Source of the DNA: Hahella sp. KA22
GTDB taxonomy: Bacteria; Pseudomonadota; Gammaproteobacteria; Pseudomonadales; Oleiphilaceae
Direction: 5' to 3'
Assembly (NCBI RefSeq): GCF_004135205.1
Contig: NZ_CP035490.1
Location: 6,665,001 to 6,729,000, forward strand
Length of the DNA stretch: 64,000 nucleotides
Part shown: positions 21,106 through 28,034 of the stretch, piece by piece
Position numbering within the stretch: the stretch's first letter is position 1
Layout: the number at the start of each line of letters is the position of its first letter
Made by a program: the position numbers and the translations under genes
Notes under the pieces: generated by a model
What the model saw: only the letters and a program-made list of their open reading frames with translations
The model's database searches: none
Told to the model about the DNA's origin: nothing

Positions 21106-21324
21106 ATGGACAAACCTAGTCTTCCGGGTATTTTGGTAACGCGGTCTATGTATATTTATCGCTTGGTGTTTCTGCTGATTTTAGGCGTCTACATATTTTC
21201 ACCAGTGATCATGGACTGGTGGATCGCGCCAGGTAGCGCTTGGTACAGGCCTTACATTATCTGGTCTCTGCTGATCGTCGTCGCATACTGGTTAGAGCGA
21301 AAGCGGGGACCGAATGAATTTTAG
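21106..21324 (+). CDS. cbrX: Small membrane protein CbrX-like
   Basis: A small hydrophobic protein (72 aa from ATG 21106; 58 aa if ATG 21148 is used) with two predicted transmembrane helices (YRLVFLLILGVYIFSP, and PYIIWSLLIVVAYW) and a basic C-terminal end. It overlaps cbrA by 11 nt. Pseudomonas has a small open reading frame, cbrX, in exactly this position, whose translation is coupled to that of cbrA. Neither start has a strong ribosome site, so the start is uncertain. Size, topology and place all match. Confidence 0.75.
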   Translation: MDKPSLPGILVTRSMYIYRLVFLLILGVYIFSPVIMDWWIAPGSAWYRPYIIWSLLIVVAYWLERKRGPNEF

Positions 21325-24280
21325 CGCCTGGAGCCTGCTCGCCTACGGAGCCTTGTACCTCAGCGCATTGTTTGGCCTGGCTTATATCACCGAGCGCGGC
21401 TGGATACCTTTGCGTTGGGTTCGGCACCCCGCCACCTATGTTCTATCTCTCGGCGTCTACGCCAGCGCCTGGGCGTTTTACGGCTCCGTCGGCTTGGCTT
21501 ACGAATTCGGCTACGGCTTTCTAGCTTTCTACCTGGGTGTCTGTGGCGCCTTTCTCCTTGCGCCGGTGTTGTTGATTCCTGTTCTGCGGGTTACAAAATC
21601 CTATCAACTTTCTTCAGTGGCGGACTTATTCACCTTCCGCTACAGGAGTCAGGCTGCTGGCACCATCAGCACGCTCTTCATCAGTTTCGCTTCACTCGCG
21701 CTGCTGGCGCTGCAGTTCCAGGCGCTCGACAACTCTCTGCATGTCCTGGCTCCGTCTCAGGACACACGGATCGTCAGTGTGCTGTTCTGCGCCATGATTA
21801 TTTTCTTCGCCATCTTTTTCGGCGCCCGCGGGCAAACTCGCGCGGAAAGACACCCCAGCCTGATCGTGGCGATAGCGCTTGAAGGCGGACTCAAGCTGGT
21901 GATCATTCTGGCCCTGGCCATATTGATCGCCTATCAGGTGTTCGGCGGCTTCGGAGAAGTGAACAGCTGGCTGCAAGAGAACGCGCAACGCATCAGCGCC
22001 ATGGAGCGCCACTTAGAGGAAGGACCCTGGCGGGCGATGCTGCTGATATTCTTCGCATCCGCCCTGGTGATGCCGCACATGTTTCATGTCACCTTTACGG
22101 AAAACCTGAATCCCACCGCGCTTTACAAAGCAAGCTGGGGACTGCCGGTGTACCTGCTCCTGATGAGTCTGCCCATCCCAATTTTCATGTGGGCGGGCAT
22201 CAAGCTGTCCGTTCCCACAACGCCGGAGTTTTTTATTCTGGGCCTGGGTCAGGTGCTCAACGCCCCCTGGATCAGCATTGTCGCCTTTCTTGGCGGACTG
22301 ACCGCCGCCAGCGGTTTACTGATCGTGACCTGCCTGGCGCTGGCTTCAATGATGCTTAACCACGTTATTCTCCCTGTGTATCAGCCTTTGTCCCGCGGCA
22401 ATATTTATTCCTGGCTGACCTGGGTAAGACGCGGGTTAATCTTGTTTATCCTTGGCTCCGGCTACCTGTTCTCTCTATTCCTGGACAACCGCTTTTCTCT
22501 TTCCGAGCTGGGCATACTGGCTTTTTCCGCCGGCCTGCAATTGCTGCCGGGGGTGATGGCGGTCATCTATTGGCCCCTGGGAAATCGCAACGGGTTCATC
22601 AGTGGCTTATGCGCCGGCGTAAGCTTGTGGTTCGTCACCATGCCACTGCCCATCCTGTTTGGCGTAGACGTATTCTCGGTCAATCCATGGCGCGACAGCT
22701 ACAGCTTCAATCCTGACGACTGGCACTACTATGTGATGGCGTCGCTAACGCTGAATATTTTCATTTTCGTTATGGTCAGCCTGTTTACCGACGCCTCTCA
22801 AGCGGAAGCGCGTTCCGCCCAGGCCTGCTCCGTCGACACATTGATGCGGCCATCACGGCGCGAACTGGTCGCCACCAGCTCCGAGCAGTTTAAGGATTTT
22901 CTGACAGAGTCTCTGGGCCGCCAAGCTGCTGAGAGGGAAGTGAATCACGCTCTTGCGCAGTTGCAGTTGCACGAAGTCGAGTACCGCCCCTACGCGCTAC
23001 GCAGACTGCGCGATCAGATCGAAGCCAATTTGTCAGGATTGTTAGGCCCGGCTCTGGCGCAGGACATAGTCAAACAGAATCTCAGCTTCAAGCCCGCCAC
23101 CAGCGTTGCCCCCGCTCAGGACATTTACTTCGTTGAGAGCAAACTGGAGGAATACCATAACCGCCTCAGCGGACTTGCAGGCGAGCTGGATACGCTGCGC
23201 CGTTACCATCGGCAAACCCTGCAAAATCTGCCTATCGCCACCTGCTCTTTAGGCGCCGACCTTGAGGTGTTGATGTGGAATCACGCGATGGAACAGCTGA
23301 CGGGAATTCCCGCTCCACAGGTCATCGGTTCGCACATCAGCGCTATCGCCAAGCCCTGGTCCACGCTGCTATTCAGCTTCGCCAATGCGGAAGAGCGCCA
23401 TGTCTCCAAGAAACGCTTGGACATTAGCGGCGCGCCACACTGGTTCAATCTGCACAAAGCCGCGATTGAAAGCGATGGCGCATCCGGCGCAGGGCAAGTG
23501 TTGCTTTTAGAAGATTATACGGAGACCCAGTTATTGGAAGACGAGCTGGTTCATAGTGAACGCCTTGCTTCCGTGGGACGTCTTGCAGCGGGGGTCGCCC
23601 ACGAAATTGGCAACCCGGTAACAGGCATCGCCTGTCTTGCCCAAAACCTCAAACTAATGACCAGCAACGAAGAAGTGCTGGAGACAGCGGGACATATTCT
23701 TGTGCAGACCCAGCGGGTCTCTAGAATTTTACAAACCCTGATGAATTTCGCGCGCTCCGGCAATTACACGCAATCCGCCCAGCATGGGCCGACGGAGTTA
23801 AAACGTTGCGTCGACGAAGCGATACACTTACTCTCCTTATCCACTAAAGAGCCACAGGTGCTCTACGTCAACGAAGTGGACGAAACGGTAAAGGTAATGG
23901 GCGACGGACAACGCCTGGTGCAGGTGTTCGTCAACTTGCTCAGCAACGCCCGCGACGCTTCGGAGGCTTCAGCCAATATCTGGGTGAGAGCGACGCTGCA
24001 ACAATATTCCATCCACGTTGAAGTGGAGGATGAAGGCAGCGGCATCAGCGGCGACCAGATAGATCACCTGTTCGAGCCCTTCTATACCACCAAAGGCCCC
24101 GATAAGGGCACTGGTTTGGGGCTGTCTCTGGTGTACAGCATTATAGAAGAGCACTACGGCCACATTCGGATAGAAAGTCCGGCTGATAAAGAATCCGGCA
24201 AAGGAACCCGGGTCATTATCGAACTACCGGCTTATCAGTCCGACTCAGAAAGTATCTCTGCAGAGTTAACGGAAACTTAA
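21314..24280 (+). CDS. cbrA: Sensor histidine kinase CbrA with SSS-transporter domain
   Basis: A 988-aa hybrid of a sodium/solute symporter (SLC5-like) module and a sensor kinase. About 13 hydrophobic helices span residues 1-490. A linker follows, then a PAS domain (about 640-740, LGADLEVLMWNHAMEQLTGI). The HisKA box has H763 in AAGVAHEIGNP, and the HATPase domain has the N, G1 (DEGSGI) and G2 (GTGLGLSLV) boxes. Pseudomonas CbrA has this architecture and nearly this length. It controls carbon-nitrogen balance and histidine, proline and arginine use with CbrB. Translationally coupled to cbrX upstream; 3-nt gap to cbrB. Confidence 0.96.
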   Translation: MNFSAWSLLAYGALYLSALFGLAYITERGWIPLRWVRHPATYVLSLGVYASAWAFYGSVGLAYEFGYGFLAFYLGVCGAFLLAPVLLIPVLRVTKSYQLSSVADLFTFRYRSQAAGTISTLFISFASLALLALQFQALDNSLHVLAPSQDTRIVSVLFCAMIIFFAIFFGARGQTRAERHPSLIVAIALEGGLKLVIILALAILIAYQVFGGFGEVNSWLQENAQRISAMERHLEEGPWRAMLLIFFASALVMPHMFHVTFTENLNPTALYKASWGLPVYLLLMSLPIPIFMWAGIKLSVPTTPEFFILGLGQVLNAPWISIVAFLGGLTAASGLLIVTCLALASMMLNHVILPVYQPLSRGNIYSWLTWVRRGLILFILGSGYLFSLFLDNRFSLSELGILAFSAGLQLLPGVMAVIYWPLGNRNGFISGLCAGVSLWFVTMPLPILFGVDVFSVNPWRDSYSFNPDDWHYYVMASLTLNIFIFVMVSLFTDASQAEARSAQACSVDTLMRPSRRELVATSSEQFKDFLTESLGRQAAEREVNHALAQLQLHEVEYRPYALRRLRDQIEANLSGLLGPALAQDIVKQNLSFKPATSVAPAQDIYFVESKLEEYHNRLSGLAGELDTLRRYHRQTLQNLPIATCSLGADLEVLMWNHAMEQLTGIPAPQVIGSHISAIAKPWSTLLFSFANAEERHVSKKRLDISGAPHWFNLHKAAIESDGASGAGQVLLLEDYTETQLLEDELVHSERLASVGRLAAGVAHEIGNPVTGIACLAQNLKLMTSNEEVLETAGHILVQTQRVSRILQTLMNFARSGNYTQSAQHGPTELKRCVDEAIHLLSLSTKEPQVLYVNEVDETVKVMGDGQRLVQVFVNLLSNARDASEASANIWVRATLQQYSIHVEVEDEGSGISGDQIDHLFEPFYTTKGPDKGTGLGLSLVYSIIEEHYGHIRIESPADKESGKGTRVIIELPAYQSDSESISAELTET

Positions 24281-24283
24281 GCT

Positions 24284-25672
24284 ATGGCTTTAATCTTGAT
24301 TGTAGAAGACGAGAGCATTATCCGCTCCGCCCTGACGCGACTCTTACAGCACAACGGTTACGCCGTCGCCGAAGCGGACTCCGTTGATCGCGCCCTGGAA
24401 GTTGCGGAGCAAAGCAAGCCGGATTTGATCATTTCCGATCTGCGTCTTCCCGGTCGACCCGGCACCGATCTGATTCAGGCGACCGAGACTCCCGTCCTGA
24501 TCATGACCAGTTACGCCAGCCTGCGCTCCGCCGTGGATTCCATGAAACTCGGCGCGGTGGACTATATCGCCAAGCCTTTCGATCACGACGAGATGCTGGC
24601 GTCGATCAAATCCATCCTGGACCGGCGCCCCGCCAAGCCCTCGCCTCCCAAACTTGAAGCGGAAAATTCTTCAGCGCGCACGGACATCAATGACCTGATG
24701 TTCGGTGAATGCACAGAAATGCTGAAGCTGTTCGATTTGATCGGTAAAGTCTCCCCGACCGACACCACCGTCCTGATTCAAGGCGAGTCAGGTACGGGTA
24801 AAGAGCTGGCCGCACGCGCTCTGCATATGTTGAGCCGACGCAGGGAAGGCGCCCTCATCTGCGTCAACTGCGCAGCGATTCCAGAAACACTGATTGAGTC
24901 CGAGCTATTCGGCCATGAAAAAGGCGCGTTTACGGGCGCTGTGGGCGCGCGTAGCGGCCTGATAGAGGCGGCTGATGGCGGCACCTTATTTCTCGACGAA
25001 ATAGGCGAACTGCCACTGGAAGCCCAGGCGCGTTTGTTACGGGTGCTCCAAGAAGGCGAGATTCGTCGGGTCGGCTCCACCCAGTCCAAACGCGTGGACG
25101 TACGCCTCATCGCCGCAACGCACCGTAACCTCAAGGCCATGACGAAAGTGGGCGAGTTTCGGGAGGACTTGTTTTACCGACTCAACGTCATGCAGCTCCG
25201 CATCCCCCCATTGCGCGACCGGGAAGATGATGTCATCGGCCTGGCTAAAATGCTGCTGACTAAAATGGGCGAGCGTATGGATAAGCCCAACCTCAAGTTC
25301 GATAAGGACGCCCTCACCCTTATTCGCCGCTATCAGTGGCCAGGCAACGTGCGAGAGATGGAGAACGCCGTCGAGCGCGCTGTCATCCTCTCGGACAGCG
25401 ACCATATTGGCAAAGACCTGCTGGCGATTGATCTGGAAGGTGAGCTGGATATCCCCGAAGGTATGCTGAGTATGGATAACCCCGCCAACTCCAAAGGCGC
25501 GGATAAAGGCACCGATCTGTCATTAGAGGACTATTTCCAGCACTTTGTACTGGAAAACCAGGACACCATGAGCGAAACCGAGTTGGCCCGAAAATTGGGC
25601 ATCAGCCGCAAGAGTTTGTGGGAGCGTCGACAGCGTTTGGGCATACCGCGCACCAAAAAAAGCGCTAAGTAA
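24284..25672 (+). CDS. cbrB: NtrC-family response regulator CbrB
   Basis: A 462-aa sigma54 activator. The receiver domain has phospho-acceptor D52 (IISDLRLPG) and K in YIAKPFD. The AAA+ domain has Walker A GESGTGKE and the sigma54-contact loop GAFTGA at residues 214-219. A C-terminal Fis-type HTH follows (SETELARKLGISRKSLWERRQRLG). Cognate regulator of CbrA by adjacency. The intergenic region downstream carries half-sites and a sigma54 promoter for the crcZ-like RNA, the known CbrB target in Pseudomonas. Confidence 0.97.
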   Translation: MALILIVEDESIIRSALTRLLQHNGYAVAEADSVDRALEVAEQSKPDLIISDLRLPGRPGTDLIQATETPVLIMTSYASLRSAVDSMKLGAVDYIAKPFDHDEMLASIKSILDRRPAKPSPPKLEAENSSARTDINDLMFGECTEMLKLFDLIGKVSPTDTTVLIQGESGTGKELAARALHMLSRRREGALICVNCAAIPETLIESELFGHEKGAFTGAVGARSGLIEAADGGTLFLDEIGELPLEAQARLLRVLQEGEIRRVGSTQSKRVDVRLIAATHRNLKAMTKVGEFREDLFYRLNVMQLRIPPLRDREDDVIGLAKMLLTKMGERMDKPNLKFDKDALTLIRRYQWPGNVREMENAVERAVILSDSDHIGKDLLAIDLEGELDIPEGMLSMDNPANSKGADKGTDLSLEDYFQHFVLENQDTMSETELARKLGISRKSLWERRQRLGIPRTKKSAK

Positions 25673-25910: not shown

Positions 25911-25969
25911 TGTTACCCAGCGTTACTTTGGGGAACACCAGGATGCCCTTTCAGTGGGCATTGGTAACA
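25911..25969 (+). promoter_or_regulatory. Candidate CbrB upstream activating sequences
   Basis: TGTTAC at 25911-25916, CGTTAC at 25921-25926, GGAACA at 25932-25937 and GTAACA at 25964-25969. Between the last two a small hairpin can form (ATGCCC 25943-25948 with GGGCAT 25956-25961). They lie about 105-160 nt before the predicted start of the small RNA, the usual distance for enhancer sites of NtrC-type activators. TGTTAC/GTAACA half-sites are, as I recall, the element described for CbrB in Pseudomonas. The AT-rich stretch from about 26020 to 26046 could bend or bind IHF. Confidence 0.6.
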
Positions 25970-26046: not shown

Positions 26047-26062
26047 TGGCACGCCCCATGCT
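26047..26062 (+). promoter_or_regulatory. Sigma54 (-24/-12) promoter of the crcZ-like RNA
   Basis: TGGCACG-CCCC-ATGCT. The GG at 26048-26049 and the GC at 26060-26061 are exactly 10 nt apart, as the sigma54 holoenzyme requires. The -24 half is a full match to TGGCACG. Transcription is expected about 11-12 nt after the GC, near 26072. Confidence 0.88.
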
Positions 26063-26071
26063 CTCTTACAG

Positions 26072-26450
26072 TGCAAAATAAAAATAAAAATGCACCGAAC
26101 TGCACAAATAAAAATAAAAAAGCAGAGTGAACAAAAAGAACAACCCAGAACAAAAATAAAAATACGGGTGGCGAACTGATTGTTTTGGATGCCGAGCTTT
26201 TTAGTGGTATTTCAAGGTATGGGTAGGGTGTCTAGTATTAAAAAGAACCACGACAGTGGACATTCTAGACATAAACAACACTATCCAAATCCCTATTATC
26301 ACTCAAAGTATTCAAAGCGTTCCGTTTGTAACTAATACTCTAGGCTCTAATTGTGGAGCGACCAATCGTTTGGGACCAAGACAAAAATAAAAACAAAAAA
26401 TCGTCTAACCTTCTTCTCAGTGGGGGAAAGCAACATTGCTTTCCCCTTAG
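26072..26450 (+). ncRNA. crcZ: CrcZ-type small RNA (Hfq/Crc-sequestering)
   Basis: About 380 nt, between a sigma54 promoter and a strong hairpin terminator, with no credible coding frame on this strand. It holds six A-rich tracts of the AAnAAnAA type that Hfq/Crc bind: about 26075-26090, 26105-26121, 26129-26143, 26149-26164, 26269-26281 and 26381-26400. The core CAAAAATAAAAA recurs several times. The first, second and fourth lie in loops of short hairpins. Pseudomonas CrcZ has about the same length, lies between cbrB and pcnB as here, is driven by CbrB and sigma54, and titrates Hfq/Crc to relieve carbon catabolite repression. Sequence identity to CrcZ was not tested. The name rests on position, promoter and motif content. 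Confidence 0.85.
26422..26447 (+). terminator. Intrinsic terminator of the crcZ-like RNA
   Basis: GGGGAAAGCA (26423-26432), loop ACAT, TGCTTTCCCC (26437-26446): a 10-bp perfect stem extended by one G-U pair, followed by a T-rich stretch (TTAGTTATTCT). Because of its symmetry it could also end leftward transcripts. Confidence 0.85.
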
Positions 26451-26660
26451 TTATTCTCCCCTCTTCTCATTTTTTCCTTAAATTTCCGTCTTTTGTCGAC
26501 TAATGCCTCATCAAAGCTATGCTTAAAGCATATTGGGTCTGTGCACCTTTCAGCCGCATTCCACCACGTATGAGGCACGGCTTTTGCTGTCGCAATATCC
26601 GTTACAAAAGAGTACACTCCGGCCCTCGAAATCATTGGTATTGATAGACACAAGATCGTC

Positions 26661-28034
26661 ATGCTGAAAAAGTTAATGGGCCTGATAAAACCGGGACGCA
26701 AAGAAGCCGGCGCAAAACCTTTGAAACTGCGAATCATCCCCCGCGACAGCCATACAGTCTCACGCAAGCAGATCAGCCCTGCGGCGTTGAAAGTTCTCTA
26801 CCGCCTGAACAGCGCCAACTATGACGCCTTTCTAGTCGGCGGCGGCGTCCGCGATTTATTACTGGGCGAACAGCCCAAAGACTTCGACGTCGCCACAAGC
26901 GCAACCCCAGAGCAAGTGCGCGAGCAGTTCAACAACTGCCGTCTGATCGGGCGTCGTTTCCGCCTCGCTCATGTGCGCTTCGGTCGTGAGATCATCGAAG
27001 TCGCCACGTTTCGCGCCGGCCATCAAAATGCTGGCGAAGACGATGGCGACGCGGTCACCAGCGACTCAGGCCAGATATTGCGCGACAATGTCTACGGTAA
27101 TCAGGAAGAAGACGCGCTACGCCGCGACTTCACCGTTAACGCGCTCTATTACTGCGTCAGAGATTTCAGTATTTATGACTACGCTGGCGGAATCGAAGAC
27201 ATTGAGCACCAGGTTCTGCGGCTGATCGGCGATCCTGAAACCCGTTATCGGGAAGACCCCGTACGCATGCTGCGCGCAGCCCGATTCGCGGCAAAACTGG
27301 ATTTTTCCATCGAAGAACGCACCGCCAGTCCTATTCTGGAACTGGGGCCTTTGCTTCTCAACATTCCCTCCGCGCGTTTGTTTGAAGAAGTACTGAAGCT
27401 GTTCTTATCCGGCAAAGCCGTACGCACATTCGAAATTTTGCGCCAGTTCGACTTATTCAAGTTTCTGTTTCCAGAAACCGACCGCCTGTTGGAAGCTGAG
27501 CACCCATACGCGGAAAAACTGATCCTGCAGGCGCTGCGCAATACAGATAAGCGAATCGCCCAGGACAAACCAGTAACTCCTGCGTTCTTGTACGCAGCCA
27601 TGTTGTGGTCGCCAATGCAAAGGCTGCAGCAGCGTTATCTGGACGATGGCTTGCCTCCCATGCAGGCGATGCATAAGGCTATCGACAAAGTACTGGCGCA
27701 GCAGGTCAAACACACTGCCTTGCCCAAGCGTTTTAGCCAGCCCATGCGCGAAATCTGGGAATTGCAGCTCCGTCTGCCCCGCAAACAAAGCAAGCGTCTG
27801 CAAGGCTTAGTGGAGCATCCACGCTTCCGCGCCGCCTATGACTTCCTGGTCTTACGCGAACAAAGCGGTGAAGACCTGCAGGGACTTGGCGAGTGGTGGA
27901 CGCGCTACCAGGAAGCCGATGACCAGGGGCGCAGCAAATTGCAGCAGCAAGGCCCTAAACGGGACGGCTCCGGCGGACGCAGACGTCCGCGCAGACGCCC
28001 GCGCCGCACTAACAACAGTGCGCCATCGCAATGA
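26661..28034 (+). CDS. pcnB: Poly(A) polymerase I
   Basis: Adds 3' poly(A) tails that target RNAs for decay. A 457-aa class II nucleotidyltransferase. The head motif GGGVRDLLLG followed by DFDV (metal-binding Asp pair) is at about residues 57-78. RNA-binding and neck regions follow, then a long Arg-rich basic C-terminal tail (RRRPRRRPRR type). The ATG at 26661 has only a weak ribosome site. pcnB-folK-panB-panC follows the Pseudomonas order. The stop overlaps the folK start (ATGA). Confidence 0.95.
   Translation: MLKKLMGLIKPGRKEAGAKPLKLRIIPRDSHTVSRKQISPAALKVLYRLNSANYDAFLVGGGVRDLLLGEQPKDFDVATSATPEQVREQFNNCRLIGRRFRLAHVRFGREIIEVATFRAGHQNAGEDDGDAVTSDSGQILRDNVYGNQEEDALRRDFTVNALYYCVRDFSIYDYAGGIEDIEHQVLRLIGDPETRYREDPVRMLRAARFAAKLDFSIEERTASPILELGPLLLNIPSARLFEEVLKLFLSGKAVRTFEILRQFDLFKFLFPETDRLLEAEHPYAEKLILQALRNTDKRIAQDKPVTPAFLYAAMLWSPMQRLQQRYLDDGLPPMQAMHKAIDKVLAQQVKHTALPKRFSQPMREIWELQLRLPRKQSKRLQGLVEHPRFRAAYDFLVLREQSGEDLQGLGEWWTRYQEADDQGRSKLQQQGPKRDGSGGRRRPRRRPRRTNNSAPSQ

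Follow-up and report, generated by a model that had tools for sequence, protein, structure and literature searches.

CrcZ of Pseudomonas aeruginosa PAO1 is an RNA of 407 nt with six A-rich stretches (PMC4063720), and an mfold structure of it has been published (legend in PMC6890931). For P. putida, three CbrB subsites with the sequences TGTTAC and GTAACA are described at crcZ (PMC6296734), and cbrX, of 58 aa, overlaps cbrA by 17 nt (PMC8871633). Pseudomonas genomes carry CrcY and CrcX as further copies of the same RNA type (PMC8871633), and CrcZ and CrcY of Azotobacter vinelandii, also one of the Pseudomonadaceae, likewise belong to a CbrAB and Hfq-Crc setting (PMC5429807, PMC6292655). A 2022 review gives the cbrA-cbrB-crcZ arrangement as known from Pseudomonas and Azotobacter only and regards the system as "unique" to Pseudomonadaceae (PMC8871633), and a 2018 study describes CbrAB as exclusive to that family (PMC6296734). 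Our literature search, outside which most subscription journals lay, found no report of CrcZ with Marinobacter or with Cellvibrio. In papers matching CbrA and CbrB together with Hahella, the word Hahella was absent from the texts searched; Marinobacter appears solely in the reference list in the accessible text of PMC12004949, a match for Crc, Hfq and catabolite repression, and PMC12510878 names CrcZ solely in its reference list. As judged by sequence, CbrAB-CrcZ is not unique to the Pseudomonadaceae. The mechanism is known; what is new is its range, a widely kept helix in the RNA and changed contacts in Crc.

We analysed a window of 64 kb (the whole stretch of DNA, 64,000 nt), in which all features described here lie on the + strand. 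The gene order is cbrX-cbrA-cbrB-RNA-pcnB, with the RNA just 3′ of cbrB and 5′ of pcnB. An ORF of 58 aa (21148..21324) is cbrX-like in its size and its 11-nt overlap with the cbrA start, a likeness of size and overlap and not of sequence. The following cbrA (21314..24280) encodes a 988-aa sensor kinase with a transporter-type N-terminal domain; residues 1‒594 match PDB 10ed ('histidine kinase', E 1.7e-198), and Pfam assigns PAS, HisKA and HATPase_c domains. CbrB (24284..25672, 462 aa) is a sigma54-dependent response regulator with Response_reg and Sigma54_activat domains (Pfam), and the downstream neighbour pcnB (26661..28034) encodes a poly(A) polymerase (TIGR01942, 540.6 bits). In a tree of 43 rows with named CbrB loci, CbrB of the window stands beside that of Hahella sp. 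CCB-MM4 (100/100 support, 79% identity), which places the genome, unlike Azotobacter, outside the Pseudomonadaceae and bears out the view of the first-pass annotation that it is not a Pseudomonas. We consider that the RNA is very probably a CrcZ ortholog, a CbrAB/sigma54-induced decoy of Hfq/Crc, with its expression and action extrapolated from Pseudomonas.

At the gathering score, an Rfam scan of the window returned neither CrcZ nor any sRNA in 26047‒26450. With an E-value threshold, Rfam CrcZ (RF01675) was the best family match and covered its full length at 26108‒26475, so the covariance-model search proposed in the first-pass annotation came out in favor of CrcZ, though the score of 38.8 bits lies below the curated cut-off of 95 bits and the RNA is not filed as a curated member. 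This match is the sole one to RF01675 in the genome (6.96 Mb, E 2.6e-8), giving a single copy, in contrast to Pseudomonas with its CrcY and CrcX. In the order sample, the window's family has 13 further genomes, which score 33‒55 bits, also under 95. An alignment with 18 relatives, including seven Pseudomonadaceae, shows conserved blocks outside the tracts. Like Pseudomonas CrcZ, the window RNA lies between cbrB and pcnB and has a sigma54 promoter, CbrB subsites, ARN tracts, a central helix and a 3′ hairpin. Unlike it, the window RNA falls below the Rfam cut-off, has five tracts of four or more triplets, which are rich in AAU and AAA, and differs in its inner core and tract spacing.

The sigma54 (-24/-12) promoter TGGCACGCCCCATGCT at 26047..26062 was located by a motif scan and occupies the same position in relatives. 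It is the single exact match to TGGCACGNNNNNTGCW in the 64-kb window, in agreement with the promoter that had been read between cbrB and pcnB. The site alone is within chance, because three sites were found against 3.65 expected when one mismatch was allowed; a second sigma54-like site at 26573, with one mismatch, was judged to be a chance match. Upstream of the promoter lie a forward CbrB subsite TGTTAC (25911..25916), an exact match to the P. putida subsite sequence (PMC6296734), and a reverse subsite GTAACA (25964..25969), which starts 83 bp before the sigma54 site. These two exact subsites compare with three at P. putida crcZ, the third of which has no exact match upstream of the window promoter. 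The RNA gene appears to have its own sigma54 promoter and its own upstream CbrB subsites.

The predicted transcript spans 26072..26450, with putative ends, and is supported by the RF01675 match and a fold z of -3.29; its start near 26072 is placed by the promoter spacing. The longest stop-free run in 26047‒26450 on either strand is 61 codons. A terminator scan located a 3′ hairpin (26422..26447) with a good stem of 11 pairs and a poor U tail. The hairpin described in the first-pass annotation therefore exists, but "strong terminator" overstates it, because the U tail is weak and the mechanical scan found two terminators against 1.5 expected, not above chance.

The CA-type tracts are the striking part of 26047‒26450. 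The pattern AANAANAANAANAA has six matches in the 64 kb, searched on both strands, all of them in this region and on the + strand, against 0.12 expected; none of 100 shuffles reached six. If four ARN triplets are taken as the minimum for a tract, the region has five (mean 0.7 and maximum 4 in 1000 mononucleotide shuffles): 26077..26091, 26107..26121, 26130..26144 and 26149..26163 with five triplets each, and 26383..26400 with six. Their mean unpaired values are 0.93, 0.98, 0.65, 0.99 and 0.99, so that four of the five are at least 93% unpaired and the third is just 65% unpaired. Of the six A-rich tracts counted earlier, five hold by this criterion, while the sixth, near 26239, is shorter and weaker and falls below four triplets.

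The gene set, promoter, tracts and homology are present in the window, and transcription and its induction, the binding of Hfq/Crc and the relief of repression would proceed as in Pseudomonas. On poor carbon sources, CbrA would activate CbrB, which would bind the upstream TGTTAC/GTAACA subsites and switch on sigma54-dependent synthesis of a noncoding RNA about 380 nt long. Through its mostly unpaired ARN tracts, this RNA would then bind Hfq on the distal face, jointly with Crc, and titrate both, which would free mRNAs carrying similar tracts at the ribosome-binding site for translation.

The layout recurs in relatives of Marinobacter, Hahella, Halomonas and Cellvibrio. A scan with the CbrB C-terminus gave 499 confirmed loci, of which the best 80, all named, were taken further. 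In 76 of these best 80, cbrB is followed by a sigma54 site and two or more CA clusters; among them, 32 of the 34 loci that are non-Pseudomonadaceae by title have both site and clusters, the two exceptions being a Thalassocella MAG and a Cellvibrionaceae MAG. Among 78 promoters, from 77 loci and from the window, 76 have both CbrB subsites in the 190 nt upstream, where Markov-resampled sequence predicts 0.39; the count includes one locus, L059, for which a spurious upstream promoter match had been taken. The Cellvibrionaceae MAG (L029, 549‒1100) has CbrB subsites and the sigma54 promoter with no CA cluster after it, which may reflect a crcZ that lacks tracts or a collapse in the assembly. In the Thalassocella MAG (L063), the 700 nt after cbrB contain neither a sigma54 site nor a CA array. 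Crc-like proteins are present in both genomes (L209 and L212, respectively).

Across the order, which we take to be the Pseudomonadales in GTDB's sense, Rfam CrcZ matched 59 of 293 genomes at E ≤ 0.001, and 42 of them, in six family codes, at E < 1e-6. The other 234 genomes gave no match; they may lack the RNA, or it may have been missed by a Pseudomonas-trained model with strict filters. Among 30 Rfam loci from the order search, promoter and tracts were found in all 30, and within the available flanks pcnB was present in 29 and cbrB in 26. Thus, the crcZ layout that had been noticed outside Pseudomonas is matched by Rfam and recurs in several families. Over the class, three of 276 genomes matched at E ≤ 0.001, namely the window's own, a genome of the same order with a 307-bit CrcZ, and a 24-bit match elsewhere.

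The two best-conserved blocks of the RNA pair with each other as the strands of a long helix (26171..26192 and 26308..26329), identified by alignment, fold and covariation. The minimum-energy fold of the window RNA (z -3.29) recovers this core helix unaided. It has 20 of 22 possible pairs in the window, 19‒20 in the Marinobacter group, 15‒17 in Pseudomonadaceae and 19 in three Halomonadaceae. Both strands were found by regex in 65 of the 78 promoter-bearing sequences; the 13 without one or both strands, which were dropped, include four named Pseudomonas and one contig cut short. For a column covariation test, 31 of the 65 sequences were aligned. In this alignment, the share of cells that pair is 81.7% (77.6 on average after shuffling), and seven pairs are changed on both sides. 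The covariation score of 0.209, which none of 500 shuffles reached, compares with a mean of 0.147 for the shuffles and at most 0.099 for slid registers. Further pair types in the helix were not above shuffles (19 vs 20.3). The column test gave separation where strand swapping between loci did not; swaps did not separate families, with a mean of 17.2 pairs for own strands, 16.7 across families and 16.4 within families. The inner part of the helix is apparently already in the Rfam RF01675 structure line. Because of this line and the published mfold structure, our claim is conservation of the helix and not its discovery: a central helix that covaries is common to the window RNA and Pseudomonas CrcZ. 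In three Cellvibrio loci (L006, L033 and L021), a long run of CA tracts stands downstream of cbrB and the helix was not found by regex. L006 and L033 have a different 3′ part in common with the Cellvibrionaceae MAG L029.

The helix raises the possibility of a dual-function RNA, in which decoy tracts are joined to a structured core domain with a partner of its own, either a protein or a base-paired RNA. The covarying helix in the Hahella, Marinobacter, Pseudomonas and Halomonadaceae copies and the near-invariant letters outside the tracts speak for such a domain, but regex did not find the helix in the six promoter-bearing Cellvibrionaceae sequences and the one of Saccharospirillum, and it may merely space the tracts apart or protect the RNA. 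The partner is hypothetical, and we regard a second function as rather unlikely. The most likely role of the CrcZ ortholog is that of a CbrAB-induced decoy for Hfq/Crc.

This role involves both proteins, and the first-pass annotation had held that a genome lacking a Crc/Hfq pair would count against its reading; a genome search found both. Hfq has one match, in which 63 of the first 70 residues are identical to those of P. aeruginosa, with Phe25 in place of Tyr25. Of two exonuclease-III-like proteins, the first is xthA (444 bits to PRK11756), and the second, of 257 aa (L085:1486‒2259), has P. aeruginosa Crc as its best match (E 3.6e-72, 42.3% identity). The ORFs adjoining crc are presumably pyrE and rph. 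The basic patch of Crc for RNA contact is kept at all six positions (K77, K135, R138, K139, R140 and R141). Four other residues differ from P. aeruginosa: E193 is Lys, R230 is Ser, R90 is Met and Y91 is Asn. In P. aeruginosa, these residues matter for Crc-Crc or Crc-Hfq contacts; E193R abolishes repression, R230E restores it in the E193R protein, and R90E/Y91F lowers it (PMC9890229). The changes at these four positions and Phe25 of Hfq suggest that the repression assemblies may differ. In Crc of Hahella CCB-MM4 (L208), the residues that align with 193 and 230 are Arg and Gly.

The altered contact residues (PMC9890229) and the direct binding of Hfq by P. aeruginosa CrcZ (PMC4063720) would also suit an RNA that sequesters Hfq alone, with Crc no partner in this lineage or working differently. 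We judge this to be improbable, with the six RNA-contact residues all retained and Crc found in all 14 family genomes of the order sample, own included, at 62‒67% identity in the other 13. Across the order, a Crc search matched 253 of 293 genomes at 1e-10, from which we draw no distribution because the score alone mixes Crc with exonuclease paralogs. That 26047‒26450 is a mere A-rich untranslated region or relic seems scarcely credible, since promoter, subsites, tracts, helix and synteny are conserved jointly in several families, even though the U tail is weak and the transcript is a predicted one.

Returning to the CrcZ ortholog as an Hfq/Crc decoy, the RNA and its partner genes occur in a Hahella-like genome and several relatives, and the food-choice system therefore looks older and wider than described. 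The RNA-decoy choice of carbon source becomes testable in many more bacteria, among them Hahella, Marinobacter, Halomonas and Cellvibrio relatives, and the divergent copies reveal which parts of the RNA and of Crc are fixed. As a tentative extension, doubtful when taken as a whole, the order would have an old CrcZ predating the Pseudomonas split, the helix would be a second functional part (a scaffold or separate binding site), and the Hahella line would have remodelled the Crc-Crc interfaces of the repression complex while the RNA-contact patch stayed as it was.

Candidate targets were sought in 864 kb of the genome's own sequence (the window and 40 stretches) with 752 starts from simple start calls. 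Of these starts, 13 have the motif AANAANAANAA in the 35 nt before them (antisense, one), the highest count among 84 composition-matched patterns (next 6, median 2). In G059, a genome in which Crc has no match at 1e-10, the motif precedes 8 of 315 starts, none antisense, and again leads the 84 patterns (next 7). In G107, whose 334-bit CrcZ led us to class it with the Pseudomonadaceae, the four-triplet motif preceded 0 of 314 starts, and the test is therefore insensitive there. A three-triplet motif ranked first of 15 in the own genome and in G107 and fifth, tied, in G059. The strict five-triplet CA motif formed eight clusters outside crcZ in the own-genome sample, too few to test. The test has no discriminating power, and the case for CA motifs at the starts of some catabolic genes as Hfq/Crc targets is weak, because the genome without a Crc match shows such motifs too.

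Pfam was run on nine of the 13 motif-bearing genes and on a ctaA-like gene. The motif-bearing genes include those for cytochrome oxidase subunits, an alpha-amylase, an amino-acid permease, endonuclease I and two AraC-type regulators, as well as genes without an evident catabolic role, e.g. for a Yip1-domain protein. A five-triplet tract lies upstream of the ctaA-like gene. CA tracts precede ctaA-, coxB- and cox3-like genes (L164:1850‒1890 and L145:14253‒18041), and the cytochrome oxidase cluster may therefore be under Hfq/Crc control.
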